Under the pieces are notes generated by a model. The model was given only the letters and a program-made list of their open reading frames with translations. It searched no databases and had not been told where the DNA came from. The translations under genes and the position numbers were made by a program. Of a stretch of 64,000 nt of DNA, positions 7,963 through 62,484 are shown piece by piece. The number at the start of each line of letters is the position of its first letter. The first letter of the stretch is position 1. The stretch is taken from assembly GCA_017519415.1 (NCBI GenBank), contig JAFWSI010000070.1:150841-214840 (forward strand). Reading direction: 5' to 3'. The stretch is from Ruminococcus sp. GTDB lineage: Bacteria; Bacillota; Clostridia; Oscillospirales; Ruminococcaceae.

Positions 7963-8869
7963 TATATGCCTTCTCGGCACCGGAGGAATGATGCCTCTCA
8001 AGGACAGGTTCCTCACCGGCCTCTATGCGGAATACAGCGGAAAGGCAGTCCTTATCGACTGCGGAGAGGGTATGCAGGTAGCTATTGCTGCTCACGGCCT
8101 TAAAATGAGCAGGATAGAACTTATACTCATCACCCACTGTCATGCCGATCATGTTGCGGGACTTCCCGGACTGCTGCTTTCCATCGGCAACAGCTCCCGT
8201 ACCGAGCCGTTGTATATCGCAGCAGGACGGAGCACGATGCCGGCTGTGGAAAAGCTCATCAGCATATGCGGCGGACTTCCCTATGAGATAAGGCTGACAG
8301 AGCTTGCCGAGGATCGTGCGGATACCTTTACAGCGGATATGATCGATCCGATGCTTACGGTAAATACTCTGCCACTGTCTCACAGAGTCAGCTGTCTCGG
8401 CTACAGTCTCCTCCTGAAGCGCAGACCCACCTTCCTTCCCGAAAAGGTAAGGGAACTCGGAGTCCCCGTTGAGTTCTGGAAACGGCTCCACAGCGGAGAG
8501 TCTGTAACTCTTTCCGACGGCAGGTCGATCGCATCACGGGAGGTCACAGGAGAGATCAAACCGCCCGTAAAGATAACTTATGCTACCGATACTCTTCCTA
8601 TAGCGGAGCTGACGGAATTTGCCTGCGGCTCCGACCTTTTCGTATGCGAGGGAATGTACGGACTTCCGGAAAAGAAGGAGTCTATGATCGAAAAGCGCCA
8701 TATGCTCATGCAGGACGCCTGTAATATCGCTTTAAAGGCACAGGTAAAAAGACTATGGCTCACTCATTACAGTCCCGCAGAAAAGGAGCCGTCTGTTTAT
8801 TCGGACGGGCTGAGAGGGATTTTCCCCGGTACTGTTGTATCGGAGGACGGCATAAAGATAACATTATGA
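7955..8869 (+). CDS. Ribonuclease Z-like metallo-beta-lactamase hydrolase
   Basis: 304-residue metallo-beta-lactamase-fold protein resembling tRNase Z, the tRNA 3'-end endonuclease. It has the zinc motif THCHADHVAGLPGL (HxHxDH), an RNase Z-like LSHRVSCLGY segment followed by a PTFLPEKVRELGVP stretch, a downstream ATDTLP Asp, and the late WLTHYSP histidine. The start at 7955 has a perfect AGGAGGG site inside rseP, with 8 bases of overlap. The tRNA-Ser(GGA) in this window lacks an encoded CCA and would be a natural substrate for such an enzyme; the CCA-containing tRNAs would not. Other RNA or small-molecule substrates remain possible. Confidence 0.8.
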   Translation: MADICLLGTGGMMPLKDRFLTGLYAEYSGKAVLIDCGEGMQVAIAAHGLKMSRIELILITHCHADHVAGLPGLLLSIGNSSRTEPLYIAAGRSTMPAVEKLISICGGLPYEIRLTELAEDRADTFTADMIDPMLTVNTLPLSHRVSCLGYSLLLKRRPTFLPEKVRELGVPVEFWKRLHSGESVTLSDGRSIASREVTGEIKPPVKITYATDTLPIAELTEFACGSDLFVCEGMYGLPEKKESMIEKRHMLMQDACNIALKAQVKRLWLTHYSPAEKEPSVYSDGLRGIFPGTVVSEDGIKITL

Positions 8870-57299: not shown

Positions 57300-59141
57300 T
57301 TATGCGATCTCAAACTGAGAATTATAAAGGTTTGCATAGAATCCGTTTCTTTCAAGCAGCTCGTCATGCCTGCCCTGTTCTATAATATCTCCGTCCTTCA
57401 TTACCAGTATCAGATCAGCGTTGCGGATAGTCGAAAGTCTGTGGGCGATAACAAAGCTTGTTCTTCCTTTCATGAGGCGATCCATGGCGTCCTGTATCAG
57501 CACTTCCGTTCTTGTGTCGACCGATGACGTTGCCTCGTCAAGTATCATTATCTTTGAATCTGAAAGAATAGCTCTTGCAATAGTTATCAGCTGTTTCTGA
57601 CCCTGAGATACGTTGGTTGCATCTTCATTCAGGATCATGTCATATCCGTTCGGCAGGGATTTGATAAAATGGTGTGCATGGGCAGCTTTGACAGCTTCGA
57701 TTACTTCTTCATCAGTAGCGTCAAGCCGTCCGTAGCGGATATTTTCCATTATGGTACCGTTGAACAGCCATGTGTCCTGTAATACCATACCGAAGCTTTT
57801 TCGGAGCTCTTTTCTCGGTATTCTTTTTATGTCGGTACCGTCAAGGAATATTGAGCCGCCGTTTACGTCGTAAAATCTAATCAGAAGTTTTACCATTGTG
57901 GTCTTTCCGGCTCCTGTCGGTCCTACTATGGCAATTTTCTGGCCTGCTTTTATATCTGCGCTGAAGTCGCCGATGACGATCTTATCGGGAGTGTATCCGA
58001 AGGATACGTGATCGAAGCGGACGTTTCCTGTTACATTTTCGGGTATTACAGCATTATCAGGAATCTGTTCCTCTTCGGTCTCATTCAGAAATTCAAATAC
58101 TCTTTCTGCCGCAGCAGTCATAGCCTGTACCTGATTTATTACCTGAGCTATCTGCTGGATAGGCTGAGTAAACTGCTTGACATACTGTATGAAAGCCTGT
58201 ATATCGCCAATTCCGATAGCGCCCTTTATAGCAAGGAGACCGCCGGATATTGCTACACCCGCATATCCCATATTTCCCACAAACTGCATTACGGGCATCA
58301 TTGTTCCCGAAAGGAACTGTGATTTCCAGGCAGATCTGTAAAGGGTATCGTTGGTCTTACAGAAATCCTCTATCATTTCCTCTTCCTTATTGAAGACCTG
58401 AACAACGGAATGTCCGCTGTAGCTTTCTTCAACGATACCGTTTATGTGTCCGAGGTACTCCTGCTGTGTACGGAAGTGCTTTTGGGATTTTTTTATGACA
58501 AAGGAAAGCAGAAAAGCAGAAATAGGCAGTATAACAAGAGAGATGAGCGTCATTATAGGCGAAATGGAAAGCATCATTACAAGTGTGCCTATAAGTGTAG
58601 CAACTGAGGTGATTATCTGAGTTATACTCTGACTAAGCGTAGTTCCGAGAGTATCCACATCATTTGTTATACGGGAGAGTACTTCACCATAGGTCCGGCT
58701 CTCGAAATAGCTCATTGGCATACGTCCGATTTTTTCGGATATATCCTTGCGCATCTTATACGAGATCTTCTGGGATATTCCTGTCATTATCCAGCCCTGT
58801 GCAAAGCTTACTGCGGAGCTGAATATATACAGTCCGAGGGTAAAGAGAAGTATTTTTCCGATGTATTTGAAATTGATACCGCCGACTCCTGCGATTTTCC
58901 TCATAAGACCGTCAAAGAGCTCATTTGTTGCTTTGGCCATTATTTTAGGACCGGCAACCGAAAATACAGTTGCTACTGCTGCAAGAATCATCACTATGAG
59001 TATGGCAATCTTATATGCTCCCAGGTAGGAAATGAGCTTTTTTACCGATCCCTTGAAATCCTTAGGCTTCTCGGTGGGTGCAAACCTGCCGCCGCCCATT
59101 CGTCCTCGTGAGCGCGGAGAAATGCCTGGAGACTTACTCAT
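57300..59141 (-). CDS. ABC exporter half, heterodimer subunit 2
   Basis: 613 residues: transmembrane domain (about 30-340, six helices) then ATPase. Walker A GPTGAGKTT, signature ATNVSQGQKQL, Walker B IMILDEATSSVD and the H-loop IAHRLST are all canonical. The start at 59141 has GGAGG eight bases upstream. It overlaps the preceding ABC gene by 8 bases. With that gene it forms a LmrCD/BmrCD-like heterodimeric exporter, lipid A/multidrug type; substrate unknown. Confidence 0.92.
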   Translation of the reverse strand: MSKSPGISPRSRGRMGGGRFAPTEKPKDFKGSVKKLISYLGAYKIAILIVMILAAVATVFSVAGPKIMAKATNELFDGLMRKIAGVGGINFKYIGKILLFTLGLYIFSSAVSFAQGWIMTGISQKISYKMRKDISEKIGRMPMSYFESRTYGEVLSRITNDVDTLGTTLSQSITQIITSVATLIGTLVMMLSISPIMTLISLVILPISAFLLSFVIKKSQKHFRTQQEYLGHINGIVEESYSGHSVVQVFNKEEEMIEDFCKTNDTLYRSAWKSQFLSGTMMPVMQFVGNMGYAGVAISGGLLAIKGAIGIGDIQAFIQYVKQFTQPIQQIAQVINQVQAMTAAAERVFEFLNETEEEQIPDNAVIPENVTGNVRFDHVSFGYTPDKIVIGDFSADIKAGQKIAIVGPTGAGKTTMVKLLIRFYDVNGGSIFLDGTDIKRIPRKELRKSFGMVLQDTWLFNGTIMENIRYGRLDATDEEVIEAVKAAHAHHFIKSLPNGYDMILNEDATNVSQGQKQLITIARAILSDSKIMILDEATSSVDTRTEVLIQDAMDRLMKGRTSFVIAHRLSTIRNADLILVMKDGDIIEQGRHDELLERNGFYANLYNSQFEIA

Positions 59142-61446
59142 CTTCATCACCTCCGACGCTTTTTTTCAATTCCTCCTCGGAGAGCTGAGAGCCTGCTATC
59201 TGCTTATAAGTGTCACATCGTTTCATGAGCTCTTTATGGGTTCCTTTACCGACTATACGTCCGCTTTCAAGTACGATTATCTGATCAGCGTTCATTATAG
59301 TGCTTATGCGCTGTGCAACAATAATAACCGCTGAGTTCCGAGTATATGCAGACAGAGCTTTTCGGAGCGAGGCATCTGTTCTCATGTCAAGTGCTGAGAA
59401 GCTGTCATCGAATATGTATACGTCAGGCTCTTTTATTATTGCTCTTGCAATTGCAAGGCGCTGTTTCTGTCCGCCTGATACATTTGATCCGCCCTGTGAT
59501 ATTGAGCGTTCAAAAGCATTATCATCTGACGTTATGAATTCCAAAGCCTGCGATATTTCAGCTGCTTTCCTCAGCTCCTCATCAGTTGCTTCCTTTTTTC
59601 CGAATCTGAGATTTGAAGCTATTGTGCCCGAGAAAAGAATGCCTTTCTGCGGAACGAGACCTATCCTGCTGCGAAGATCTGACATTTTAAAGGACCGTAT
59701 ATCTGTTCCGTCAAGTGTTATCCTTCCTGAGGTAACATCATAAAAACGGGGGATAAGATTGACGAGAGTCGTTTTTCCGCAGCCGGTACTTCCGATTATT
59801 GCCGTAGTTTTACCGGCTTCCGCTGTAAATGTGATGTCGTCGAGAGCGTTATCATCAGCATTCGGATATCTGAATGATACATTTTCAAAGCATACAGTGC
59901 CGGAAGACTTAGCTGGAGTTATCGGTGTGTCAGGATCATGAAGCGATGTATTTGTCTTAAGCACTTCGTCGATACGGTCGGCTGCAACACCTGCGCGGGG
60001 AAGCATTACGGACATTACCGTAAGCATAAGGAATGACATAACTATCTGTGTGGAATAGGTTATGAAGGCTGTCATTGAGCCTACCTGAAGTGTACCTGCG
60101 TCTATTCTGTGAGCAGATACCCAAACGATCGTAAGTGTAACGCCGTACATTACGAGCATCATTCCCGGCAGCATAAAGGTCATTACTCTTCCGGTAAAGA
60201 GCTGAGTATTCATCAGTGACCGATTGGCTTTTTCGAAGCGATCTTCCTCTTCCTTTTCGCGGCCGAAGGCTCTGATAACATTCAGACCTGTAAGTATTTC
60301 ACGGGATATAAGGTTAAGATTATCCACCAGCTTTTGCATTGCCTTGAATTTCGGCATAGCTATAATAAGAAGCACAAGCACAAGCATGAATATGATGGAA
60401 ACAGCTGCTATTATTATCCAGCTCATGTGTGCGCCGGAGCCGATCACTTTTATGATGCTTCCGATACCGAGGATAGGTGCATACATAAGAACTCTGAGCA
60501 GCAGAGCAGTGACCATCTGTATCTGTTGTACGTCATTTGTACTTCTTGTTATGAGAGAAGCAGTAGAGAATTTATCGATCTCAGTGTTGGAGTAGCTCAT
60601 AACCCTGCGGAAAATCTTTTCACGGAGGTCCTTTCCGATGCCTGCGCCTGTACGGGCTGCAAAATATCCTGTACATATTGACACAGCGAGCATCAGGGCA
60701 GCCATAAGGAACATTTTGAGTCCTTGTATCCAGAGGTATCTCTTTTGTATAGCGTCAATGTCTATTCCGGCAGCCTTGTCTGTCTCGGCAGCATAAGCTA
60801 TGCCCATTGACTTTACGGTACGCTCTCCGAGAGATGAAACCGTATTTTCAAGCTGCGAACGCATAGCTGTTATTTTTGTGCTGTCAAGGCGGCCGCTTTG
60901 TAAAAGACTGAGCATTACAGGCCTTACATCAACATATGTTGTGGTTTTGCCTTTTTCATCGGTCTTATTGCTTGTTCTCAGCTCTGTGCCGAGAAGCTTT
61001 CCTATTTCTTCAACGGAAAGGTTTTCAAGATTGGTACTTTGCGGTGAATTTTCCGTATATTCTGCAAGTGTTGCTCTGAAACGCTCCTCACTCATATTTC
61101 CGGTCTGATAGACAAGACTCAGCGGGATAAGAAACTTGTCGCTTATTGATTTGAGGTTGTTTTTATCGACTGTCCTCGTATATGCTCCGTTATTATCATG
61201 TTTGTAGTACGAACTCCATTCTGACCGCTCGTTTTCTGTCATGAACAGCATGGAATAGGCCATATCCTCTGATGTGAGTTTTTCAGGGACGGCATACTCG
61301 ATCCCGTGGTTCTGTATACCAATATCTATCATATCTGATGTATACTGCGGAAGTGCGAGATCACAGTAGGCCTGAACTCCGAGAAGAATGAAGATAATAA
61401 GAACAATATGCTTATATGGCGCTAAATTGAGTAAGATCCTTTTCAT
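59134..61446 (-). CDS. ABC exporter half, heterodimer subunit 1, with large insertion
   Basis: 770 residues, longer than its partner. Between the first two helices there is a soluble region of about 200 residues (about 30-240), outside the usual 6-helix core. Walker A GSTGCGKTT, signature GSNVSGGQKQRLAIA, Walker B 'VYIFDDSFSALDMRTD' (the usual catalytic Glu after the Walker B Asp is Asp) and IVAQRIST (His of the H-loop is Gln). The Asp/Gln changes mark the degenerate site of a heterodimeric exporter. It follows the PglX-like gene by 38 bp with GGAGGG at the start. Confidence 0.92.
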   Translation of the reverse strand: MKRILLNLAPYKHIVLIIFILLGVQAYCDLALPQYTSDMIDIGIQNHGIEYAVPEKLTSEDMAYSMLFMTENERSEWSSYYKHDNNGAYTRTVDKNNLKSISDKFLIPLSLVYQTGNMSEERFRATLAEYTENSPQSTNLENLSVEEIGKLLGTELRTSNKTDEKGKTTTYVDVRPVMLSLLQSGRLDSTKITAMRSQLENTVSSLGERTVKSMGIAYAAETDKAAGIDIDAIQKRYLWIQGLKMFLMAALMLAVSICTGYFAARTGAGIGKDLREKIFRRVMSYSNTEIDKFSTASLITRSTNDVQQIQMVTALLLRVLMYAPILGIGSIIKVIGSGAHMSWIIIAAVSIIFMLVLVLLIIAMPKFKAMQKLVDNLNLISREILTGLNVIRAFGREKEEEDRFEKANRSLMNTQLFTGRVMTFMLPGMMLVMYGVTLTIVWVSAHRIDAGTLQVGSMTAFITYSTQIVMSFLMLTVMSVMLPRAGVAADRIDEVLKTNTSLHDPDTPITPAKSSGTVCFENVSFRYPNADDNALDDITFTAEAGKTTAIIGSTGCGKTTLVNLIPRFYDVTSGRITLDGTDIRSFKMSDLRSRIGLVPQKGILFSGTIASNLRFGKKEATDEELRKAAEISQALEFITSDDNAFERSISQGGSNVSGGQKQRLAIARAIIKEPDVYIFDDSFSALDMRTDASLRKALSAYTRNSAVIIVAQRISTIMNADQIIVLESGRIVGKGTHKELMKRCDTYKQIAGSQLSEEELKKSVGGDEDE

Positions 61447-61484
61447 TTTCCCTCCATATGCAATTAAGTTTTGCAGAATAATTG

Positions 61485-62354
61485 CTATTGCAGTATATCC
61501 TTGAGCTTTGAATAGTTTATCTTTACTCCGTCGTCAAGGTCAAGCTGAATATTCTGAGCGGCCGTTTTTTCAAGTCTTTGAAGGAAATCCTCCATTTCGG
61601 AAATGAGCGACTGTACTCTGTTTATTTCACGCCTGATCCGGCTTTTGGCCGTACCGGTTGAGGCGGTAAGCATATCGTTCAGCATTGCAGCTTCTTTTTT
61701 GAGCTGCTCGTATCTCGGAAATGCATAGTTTTCCTTTATGATAAGCGGCAGCTCCGGAGTAAATCTGTGCATATACATAAGTCCGCGAAATGCTCCCTTT
61801 TTTCCTGAAAAAATTTGCCAGTATACAGGACGGTTCTTATACATCTTTGCGTGATCGATATAGAAGCTTTTTTGCAGATAACCGTGCAGTATATCACGGG
61901 GCTCTCCGGTTCCGCCTATTGCTGAGGCTATGAAAGAAAGATTTTCTTCAAGTGTTTCGCTGCCGTACACTGTTTCTATGAAATCTATTACTGCTCTGGT
62001 TAAGCCGTTATCTATATCGTTTATTGGCATTACATTGTCGCGGCATGGGATTATTGTTCTGTACAGTGACTCATCCCATTTTCCGCCCGCATAGCACAGT
62101 CCGTCACAGTCGAGAGAATAACGGCCGAAAATACAGCCGATTGCATAGCTTATAAGACTTTTTATGTCACGCGAAAGATCTGCGCGCCGTATAGTTATTT
62201 TCGATTCTTCGACTTCGGGAGATAACTCTTCCTCCATACCGTAGAGACTGATGAAGAAGCGGTTGAGCTCTTCCTCGTTATTTTTTAGTCTCTGAAAGCG
62301 ATTTTCGCAAATTTTTTCCCATTCCGTATATTTATCTGAAATTAATGATGACAT
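61485..62354 (-). CDS. Stand-alone PglX C-terminal-domain protein
   Basis: 289 residues matching, end to end, the C-terminal part of BREX PglX: RLKNNEEELNRFFISLYGME, ESKITIRRADLSRDIKSLIS, IGCIFGRYSLDCDGLCYAGG, DFIETVYGSETLEENLSF, DHAKMYKNRPVYWQIF and the closing IQLDLDDGVKINYSKL. The DNA methyltransferase half (SAM loop, NPPY) is absent. It has its own ATG with CAGGAG at seven bases and its own consensus promoter, so it is not an ORF left over from a broken long gene in this reading. First gene of an operon with the ABC exporter. No other BREX gene (brxA, brxB, brxC, pglZ, brxL) is in the window. Homology is firm; function unknown. Confidence 0.88.
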   Translation of the reverse strand: MSSLISDKYTEWEKICENRFQRLKNNEEELNRFFISLYGMEEELSPEVEESKITIRRADLSRDIKSLISYAIGCIFGRYSLDCDGLCYAGGKWDESLYRTIIPCRDNVMPINDIDNGLTRAVIDFIETVYGSETLEENLSFIASAIGGTGEPRDILHGYLQKSFYIDHAKMYKNRPVYWQIFSGKKGAFRGLMYMHRFTPELPLIIKENYAFPRYEQLKKEAAMLNDMLTASTGTAKSRIRREINRVQSLISEMEDFLQRLEKTAAQNIQLDLDDGVKINYSKLKDILQ

Positions 62355-62383
62355 TGTTTTTCTCCTGAACGTTTTATATTATA

Positions 62384-62412
62384 ATTATAACACATAGAGT
62401 CATACACGTCAA
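62384..62412 (-). promoter_or_regulatory. Promoter of the PglX-C/ABC operon
   Basis: On the minus strand TTGACG (62412-62407), 17-bp spacer, TATAAT (62389-62384), about 30 bp before the ATG. No terminator lies between the PglX-like gene and the ABC genes. Confidence 0.88.
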
Positions 62413-62457
62413 ATATCAATCATTCTTGCAGCGCTTTCGATTAATCGCACATTATAA

Positions 62458-62484
62458 AAAAGCCCGTATGGTATACGGGCTTTT
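62458..62484. terminator. Terminator of spo0A
   Basis: 12-bp stem AAAAGCCCGTAT paired to ATACGGGCTTTT around GGT; T-rich on both strands. Ends spo0A on the minus strand. Confidence 0.9.

Follow-up and report, generated by a model that had tools for sequence, protein, structure and literature searches.

Here we report on PX, a stand-alone gene in a 64,000-nucleotide stretch of Ruminococcus sp. DNA (assembly GCA_017519415.1, contig JAFWSI010000070.1, positions 150,841 to 214,840; hereafter the window). Its product is homologous to the C-terminal region of PglX/BrxX, the methyltransferase of type 1 bacteriophage exclusion (BREX) systems. We propose, with a probability of roughly 80%, that PX is a trans-acting DNA-clamp subunit common to one or two orphan adenine methyltransferases of fixed specificity that descend from BREX. 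The catalytic half absent from the PX locus lies elsewhere in the genome, in "tailless" genes that we call M1 and M2. These genes stop where PX begins, they occur in the same genomes as PX (M1, joined in most relatives by M2), and their target recognition domains (TRDs) are conserved. A split methyltransferase subunit working outside BREX is a reading that the first-pass annotation of this DNA did not have among its options.

The gene and the parts of its product on which the argument draws are as follows:
61485..62354, minus strand: PX, stand-alone PglX/BrxX C-terminal region, 289 aa (P0001), ATG start
62244..62342, minus strand: PX residues 5-37, predicted second spacer helix (secondary structure of the model)
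62025..62054, minus strand: PX residues 101-110, loop of the BrxX metal site (D997/D999/I1001), placed by alignment columns
61557..61751, minus strand: PX residues 202-266, two long C-terminal helices including the R1145 position (model and alignment)

PX and the C-terminal region of PglX

The first-pass annotation had recognised a stand-alone PglX C-terminal homologue, and profile and structure searches agree. NCBIfam NF033452 matches PX with E 1.9e-87 (294 bits, profile positions 906-1209 of 1210), the PADLOC PglX profile with E 6.4e-95 (877-1167 of 1174), and a PDB search returns BrxX 9ewz with E 2e-41 (chain positions 942-1191). Homology at this level is far above chance; the 294 bits lie below the cut-off of 500 for the full-length NF033452 model, and a Pfam scan gave nothing significant (best E 0.12). 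The predicted fold matches the same region, starting at 890 in 8c45 and covering 872-1192 of BrxX by structure comparison. PX is thereby a member of the PglX/BrxX family, in sequence and fold, over the part it covers, and carries neither methyltransferase nor TRD on its chain (profile 906-1209 only). The idea of an orphan target-recognition protein falls away here: the BrxX TRD is residues 651-837 (PMC11842806), upstream of the part covered by PX, and the TRDs are found in the tailless methyltransferases.

The alignment column of the BrxX DNA contact R1145 holds Arg in 18, Lys in 7 and a gap in 2 of 27 rows; among the close rows it is Arg in 13 of 14 and Lys in one. In the column of the BrxX metal ligand D997, each of the 14 close rows of alignment A1 has Cys (PX of the window, L034-L045 and L063).

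PX-like sequence was matched in 29 of 100 Ruminococcus genomes, own genome included: 26 have stand-alone frames of at most 352 aa, two have longer PglX only, and one has broken pieces. It is also present in R. flavefaciens 007c (L031) and in a Ruminococcus metagenome-assembled genome (MAG). Over a compared stretch of 3 kb, 007c matches G071 without a difference, and G071 holds PX, M1 and M2. The 14 closest orthologues, own copy included, are all 289 aa from a common M-S-x-L-I start, the other 13 being 56-62% identical to the own copy. Of 91 pairs, the 14 closest give dN/dS of 0.05-0.15, except for a single pair in which it is undefined; these values are rough, as most dS are near or above 0.7. 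PX is under purifying selection. The earlier argument against decay is borne out by this conservation across genomes; we found neither a neighbourhood unique to one strain nor relaxed selection.

Outside the genus, 7 of 294 genomes of the order match PX besides the own genome. Of these, G224 and G112 have split BREX-like loci, G238 seems rearranged, G364 is full-length, G377 is cut by a contig end, and G234 and G267 give weak matches within longer frames. The class yielded matches in 39 of 392 genomes besides the own one, with frames below 400 aa in G112, G650 (partial, 200 aa), G723 (weak, 288 aa) and G633 (a second fragment, 129 aa), and a frame of 598 aa in G718. No unlinked stand-alone PX was seen in the order and class surveys, in which G650, G723, G633 and G718 were not followed up. 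A scan of viral contigs found 26 loci with a PX-like region. In 25 of them this region is part of a frame 902 aa or longer, and some loci have another frame as well, of 763-821 aa, that runs off the end of the locus. In the viral locus L150 a split copy lies near a tailless PglX with a 264-aa open reading frame (ORF) between. A phage-borne decoy was considered and rejected, as no stand-alone copy of that kind is among the 26 viral loci.

The missing methyltransferase half

The first-pass annotation reported neither a methyltransferase half nor a BREX gene near PX. Locally this holds, no methyltransferase or BREX gene adjoining PX among the ORFs and profile scans of the window, but the half itself is present on contig C75 of the own genome. 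When the 29 matching genomes were searched with the PglX model, the matches listed included, besides PX (about 905-1209), genes ending at about 900-904. M1 of the own genome is such a tailless PglX-like methyltransferase, 684 aa long with its profile end at 899, with intact catalytic motifs (DPCMGGG, NPPY) and Pfam matches to Eco57I and N6_Mtase. Its terminus, ..SWDFTKHPLI, is the point at which full-length PglX of the genus runs straight into the start sequence of PX. HPL(I/V/L) is the exact terminus of 45 of 48 tailless ORFs; two others run on for 1 or 7 residues and the remaining one is frameshifted. The two long spacer helices of PglX span 850-960 in 8C45 (PMC11341690), and the split point falls within the stretch of both; the predicted helices flanking the break are the last of M1 (652-672, low confidence) and the first of PX (5-37).

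M1 and M2 appear to occupy conserved loci unconnected with defence. At 18 of 20 loci an FGGY sugar-kinase gene precedes M1, either immediately or with a small ORF in between, and a GGDEF-EAL-type gene adjoins M2 in 11 of 14, the Pfam names of the neighbours being taken from one locus each. PADLOC assigned no defence family to the 9 neighbours of the own M1, except for a weak MkoB match to a DtxR-type repressor, and none to the 5 neighbours of one M2. Both enzymes are also trimmed. The FTPxW motif, at distances that rest on predicted start sites, stands at 133-170 in 29 of 30 M1/M2 (202 in one) and at 196-267 in 10 long PglX of the genus. The spacing from motif I to NPPY, the region of a BREX-specific insert (PMC11842806), is 107-134 in M1/M2, 152-162 in long genus PglX and 137-192 in full-length PglX elsewhere. 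At one M1 locus (L093) a GC-rich hairpin upstream of the start near 8648 overlaps a possible earlier ATG; it might be a terminator or an attenuator.

Co-occurrence of PX and M

Separate searches for PX and for M covered 72 genomes of the genus: the own genome at 75% completeness and 71 others of 90% or more. Each matches 26 and the two sets are identical, leaving 46 genomes with neither. Stand-alone PX accompanies tailless M in 24 of the 26; the remaining two are G085, with a fused PglX, and G405, with remnants of both halves in a broken BREX-like locus. Three carriers that first came up in this survey (G393, G394 and G403) each hold PX, M1 and M2. Fisher's test gives p 2.9e-19 with ancestry ignored. 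On an rpoB tree of 67 of the 72 genomes there are 7 changes, and four independent contrasts on supported branches all agree; one presence vector served for both traits because their sets are identical, the tree is without G000, G015 and G403 (3 of 24 carriers, no usable rpoB), and the contrasts are without G085 and G405. Three incomplete genomes of the 100-genome sample (G094, G036 and G047) have M of tailless length with PX undetected.

Recognition domains and specificity

The TRD of BrxX is reported to vary more than any other part of the protein (PMC11842806). In M1 and M2 it is the most conserved domain, and specificity seems conserved within each group, judged by identity only. Mean pairwise identity of the TRD versus the catalytic domain is 75% versus 63% in 13 M1, 65% versus 59% in six more distant M1, and 78.5% versus 59% in 14 M2; it is 42% versus 59.5% in 10 long PglX of the genus, five of which come from genomes without detected PglZ, so that not all are proven BREX. 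M1 and M2 likely recognise two different motifs, because their TRDs are only 37.5% identical to each other.

A shared DNA clamp acting in trans

In the mechanism that we propose, the catalytic and TRD part would come from one or two unlinked tailless genes, M1 and M2, ending in ..HPL(I/V/L). The last helix of M would pair with the first helix of PX (5-37) and rebuild the spacer, and PX would form the C-terminal wall of a positively charged groove that grips DNA 3' of the target site, while M flips and methylates an adenine within its own motif. The C-terminal domain of BrxX lines such a groove, which holds the DNA 3' of the site with contacts from R1145 and K1152 (PMC11842806), and in BrxX this is needed for stable DNA binding. 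A single PX serving both M1 and M2 would give two fixed specificities; this sharing is read from relatives, since M1 alone is among the matches listed for the own genome. The enzyme would work outside BREX, in keeping with the mostly undetected PglZ, the shortened N-terminal region and catalytic insert, and the conserved loci and TRDs, and its job is likely constitutive genome marking for epigenetic regulation or housekeeping, as with CamA.

The fuller picture, to which we give even odds, is of a BREX methyltransferase domesticated in Ruminococcus as a three-gene, BREX-independent epigenetic system, two unlinked chains, each with a different fixed motif, being joined to one PX clamp through a split spacer. 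PglX-type sites are non-palindromic and carry methylation on a single strand; if the picture is right, one of the two daughter duplexes would thus bear no mark after replication, and this could be a cell-lineage signal.

Several points weigh against this proposal. The physical complex, the sharing of PX, the methylation activity and the regulatory role are what we infer from the patterns above, and the M1 model has low confidence over both the TRD and the C-terminal helix that would meet PX. BrxX alone is inactive as a methyltransferase without other BREX proteins (PMC11842806), so that activity of an M and PX pair without them is an assumption. The own genome (75% complete) shows M1 alone, with no M2 among the matches listed. 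The four contrasts give a sign-test p of 0.125, there being few independent events, and in BREX-linked carriers PX and M are neighbours, which makes their co-occurrence trivial there. The motif I to NPPY spacing of M2 (127-134) is barely below that of some full-length PglX elsewhere (137-140), and the long PglX of the TRD comparison include unproven BREX members. The Cys at the metal site may mean a changed function and possibly a change or loss of the metal. In G046 (L129, L130) M1 is frameshifted, M2 is broken and PX is intact; these interruptions may be assembly error or decay.

An alternative that we consider unlikely is that PX is a regulator or inhibitor, a decoy that would dock on the tailless methyltransferases and turn their activity on or off. 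A promoter-like site of its own and the lack of linkage to M1 and M2 would suit such a role, and the C- or N-terminal domain of BrxX has been speculated to inhibit the methylation-competent state (PMC11842806). The same piece nevertheless stands in cis in full-length PglX, where charged residues of the C-terminal half are needed for DNA binding (PMC11341690), and the shared presence and absence of PX and M suits a necessary component, although it would suit a dedicated regulator as well.

Relation to BREX and origin of the split

PglZ was detected in 6 of the 100 genus genomes, namely G032, G035, G039, G046 and G059, which carry stand-alone PX, and G085 with its fused gene. It was undetected in 21 of the 26 stand-alone-PX carriers of this sample and not found in the 75%-complete own genome, which shows neither of the marks of type 1 BREX considered here (PglZ in the genome, BREX genes beside PX). 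In one PglZ-undetected genome, G005, PX stands between a gene resembling the large one of L046 and the beginning of a pglZ-like gene, where the contig ends, as judged by eye. The other 20 carriers show no BREX sign in what was examined; brxA, brxB, brxC and brxL, assigned by size and position only, were not searched genome-wide. Because PglZ is undetected in 21 of 26, most PX carriers appear not to be BREX, and the suggestion that PX regulates a BREX system elsewhere in the genome finds no footing in them.

Slightly less probable than the regulator is a defence role, in which M1, M2 and PX would label the cell's own DNA on behalf of an unrecognised restriction partner encoded elsewhere, in a reduced BREX-like system. 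Descent from BREX PglX is clear, and relatives retain split PglX within BREX loci. Against it stand TRDs that are frozen rather than diversified, the scanned neighbourhoods without defence genes, and the 21 PglZ-undetected genomes, among them G005, in which the contig breaks off within a BREX-like locus that includes PX. A decayed remnant of a former BREX pglX is ruled out in practice, true fragments existing in G405 and G067 but PX having a constant 289-aa length in 14 close orthologues, dN/dS of 0.05-0.15, and its own start and promoter-like site.

Split PglX recurs in BREX-like loci (L046, L049, L055, L167, L168 and the viral L150), with at least one ORF between the halves. The 264-aa intervening ORF of L150 matches PADLOC PDC-S15; those of L046, L049, L055 and L168 have no PADLOC match. 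In a tree of the C-terminal region most stand-alone copies of the genus fall together (weak, 77/96), with the fused L059 and L062 among them, and L055, L150 and L167/L168 are placed elsewhere. Several splits of PglX are likely, since split copies are scattered in this tree. In the BREX locus L046 (5983-12244, G032), a 104-aa ORF and a single 295-aa tail gene lie between two tailless PglX genes of 840 and 847 aa, and the cluster is upstream of pglZ.

Known systems and significance

Type I and IIB enzymes have separate HsdS-type specificity subunits, with chains joined via helical spacers and one subunit serving several partners. The arrangement proposed here is alike in these respects and differs in that their TRDs are on the separate chain, whereas here the TRD stays on the catalytic chain and the shared chain would be a DNA clamp. 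CamA of Clostridioides difficile is likewise a solitary conserved adenine methyltransferase, and is the second-best fold match of the M1 model; it is a single chain and is not known to have such a tail subunit. CamA promotes sporulation (PMC13395437).

The closest known system is type 1 BREX PglX/BrxX (8C45, 9EWZ), whose catalytic motifs, TRD and C-terminal region PX and M1 jointly match. It differs in that here there are two or three unlinked genes, PglZ is undetected in most carriers, the TRD is frozen, the N-terminal region is about 90 residues shorter and the catalytic insert is shorter. In MAGs of the cyanobacterial Ca. Regnicoccus frigidus, two truncated pglX together equal a full-length gene (PMC9716671), so that there too two partial genes make a whole; those halves lie in BREX, whereas the ones described here are not linked, come mostly without detected PglZ, and include a duplicated M for a single tail. 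No published split, orphan or stand-alone PglX system was found by title or abstract start in the openly licensed literature, which is weak evidence, and the main text of PMC12839542 contains none of the terms "split", "orphan" and "Ruminococc".

No function is known for the last part of PglX according to PMC11341690, and PMC11842806 treats the C-terminal domain of BrxX as specific to type I BREX. One group was unable to express the C-terminal half of PglX, TRD included, by itself (PMC11341690). A natural stand-alone tail makes its role testable by adding or withholding a second protein. If our proposal is right, it would show a route from a defence methyltransferase to an orphan epigenetic one. 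There is also a warning for database annotation, as M1 scored as "BREX-1 PglX" above the cut-off in a genome without detected PglZ.

The exporter pair and other local features

Two genes downstream of PX are judged, from family scans and relatives' loci, to be outside the system:
59134..61446, minus strand: ABC exporter subunit
57300..59150, minus strand: second ABC exporter subunit

The operon with this exporter that the first-pass annotation described fits the own species, where the ABC gene follows PX by about 38 bp without a terminator, and fails in relatives; among the PX-ABC loci read, the short gap is found only here. Stand-alone PX recurs, but the ABC pair lies 3' of it in only 10 of 14 close loci and 1 of 3 further ones (11 of 17). 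It does not adjoin PX at L034, L035, L039, L041, L266 and L268 (6 of 17), nor at any of the more divergent stand-alone loci (12 in all), some of which lie on short contigs. Among 15 selected genomes, full-length exporter orthologues (64-70%) occur in G045, G040, G402 and G098 and a broken one in G395; of these five only G045 has PX, on a different contig. A TTGACT..TATAAT-like promoter lies between PX and the ABC gene in 9 of 10 PX-ABC loci, several also with a hairpin (by eye). The pair is incidental to PX, and a module coupling this domain to export, favoured by the 11 loci and the tight spacing in the own species, is ruled out for practical purposes by a survey that separates the two in both directions.

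Further features of the locus are:
62384..62412, minus strand: PX promoter-like site, TTGACG, 17 nt, TATAAT; 11/12 matches, TG before the -10
62362..62366, minus strand: PX ribosome binding site, AGGAG (direct sequence reading)
62455..62480, minus strand: hairpin and T-run 3' of the spo0A-like gene, upstream of PX (by eye; absent from the terminator-scan list)

The clean start claimed for PX, with its own promoter and ribosome binding site ahead of the ATG, is present as described. The promoter scan found 3 such sites versus 3.2 expected in shuffles, so that this one is credible only by its quality and position; similar sites lie upstream of PX in several relatives (by eye). The genes around PX encode a Spo0A-like protein, the ABC pair, an ion channel and an HD-domain protein, and the hairpin with T-run is probably the terminator of the spo0A-like gene.

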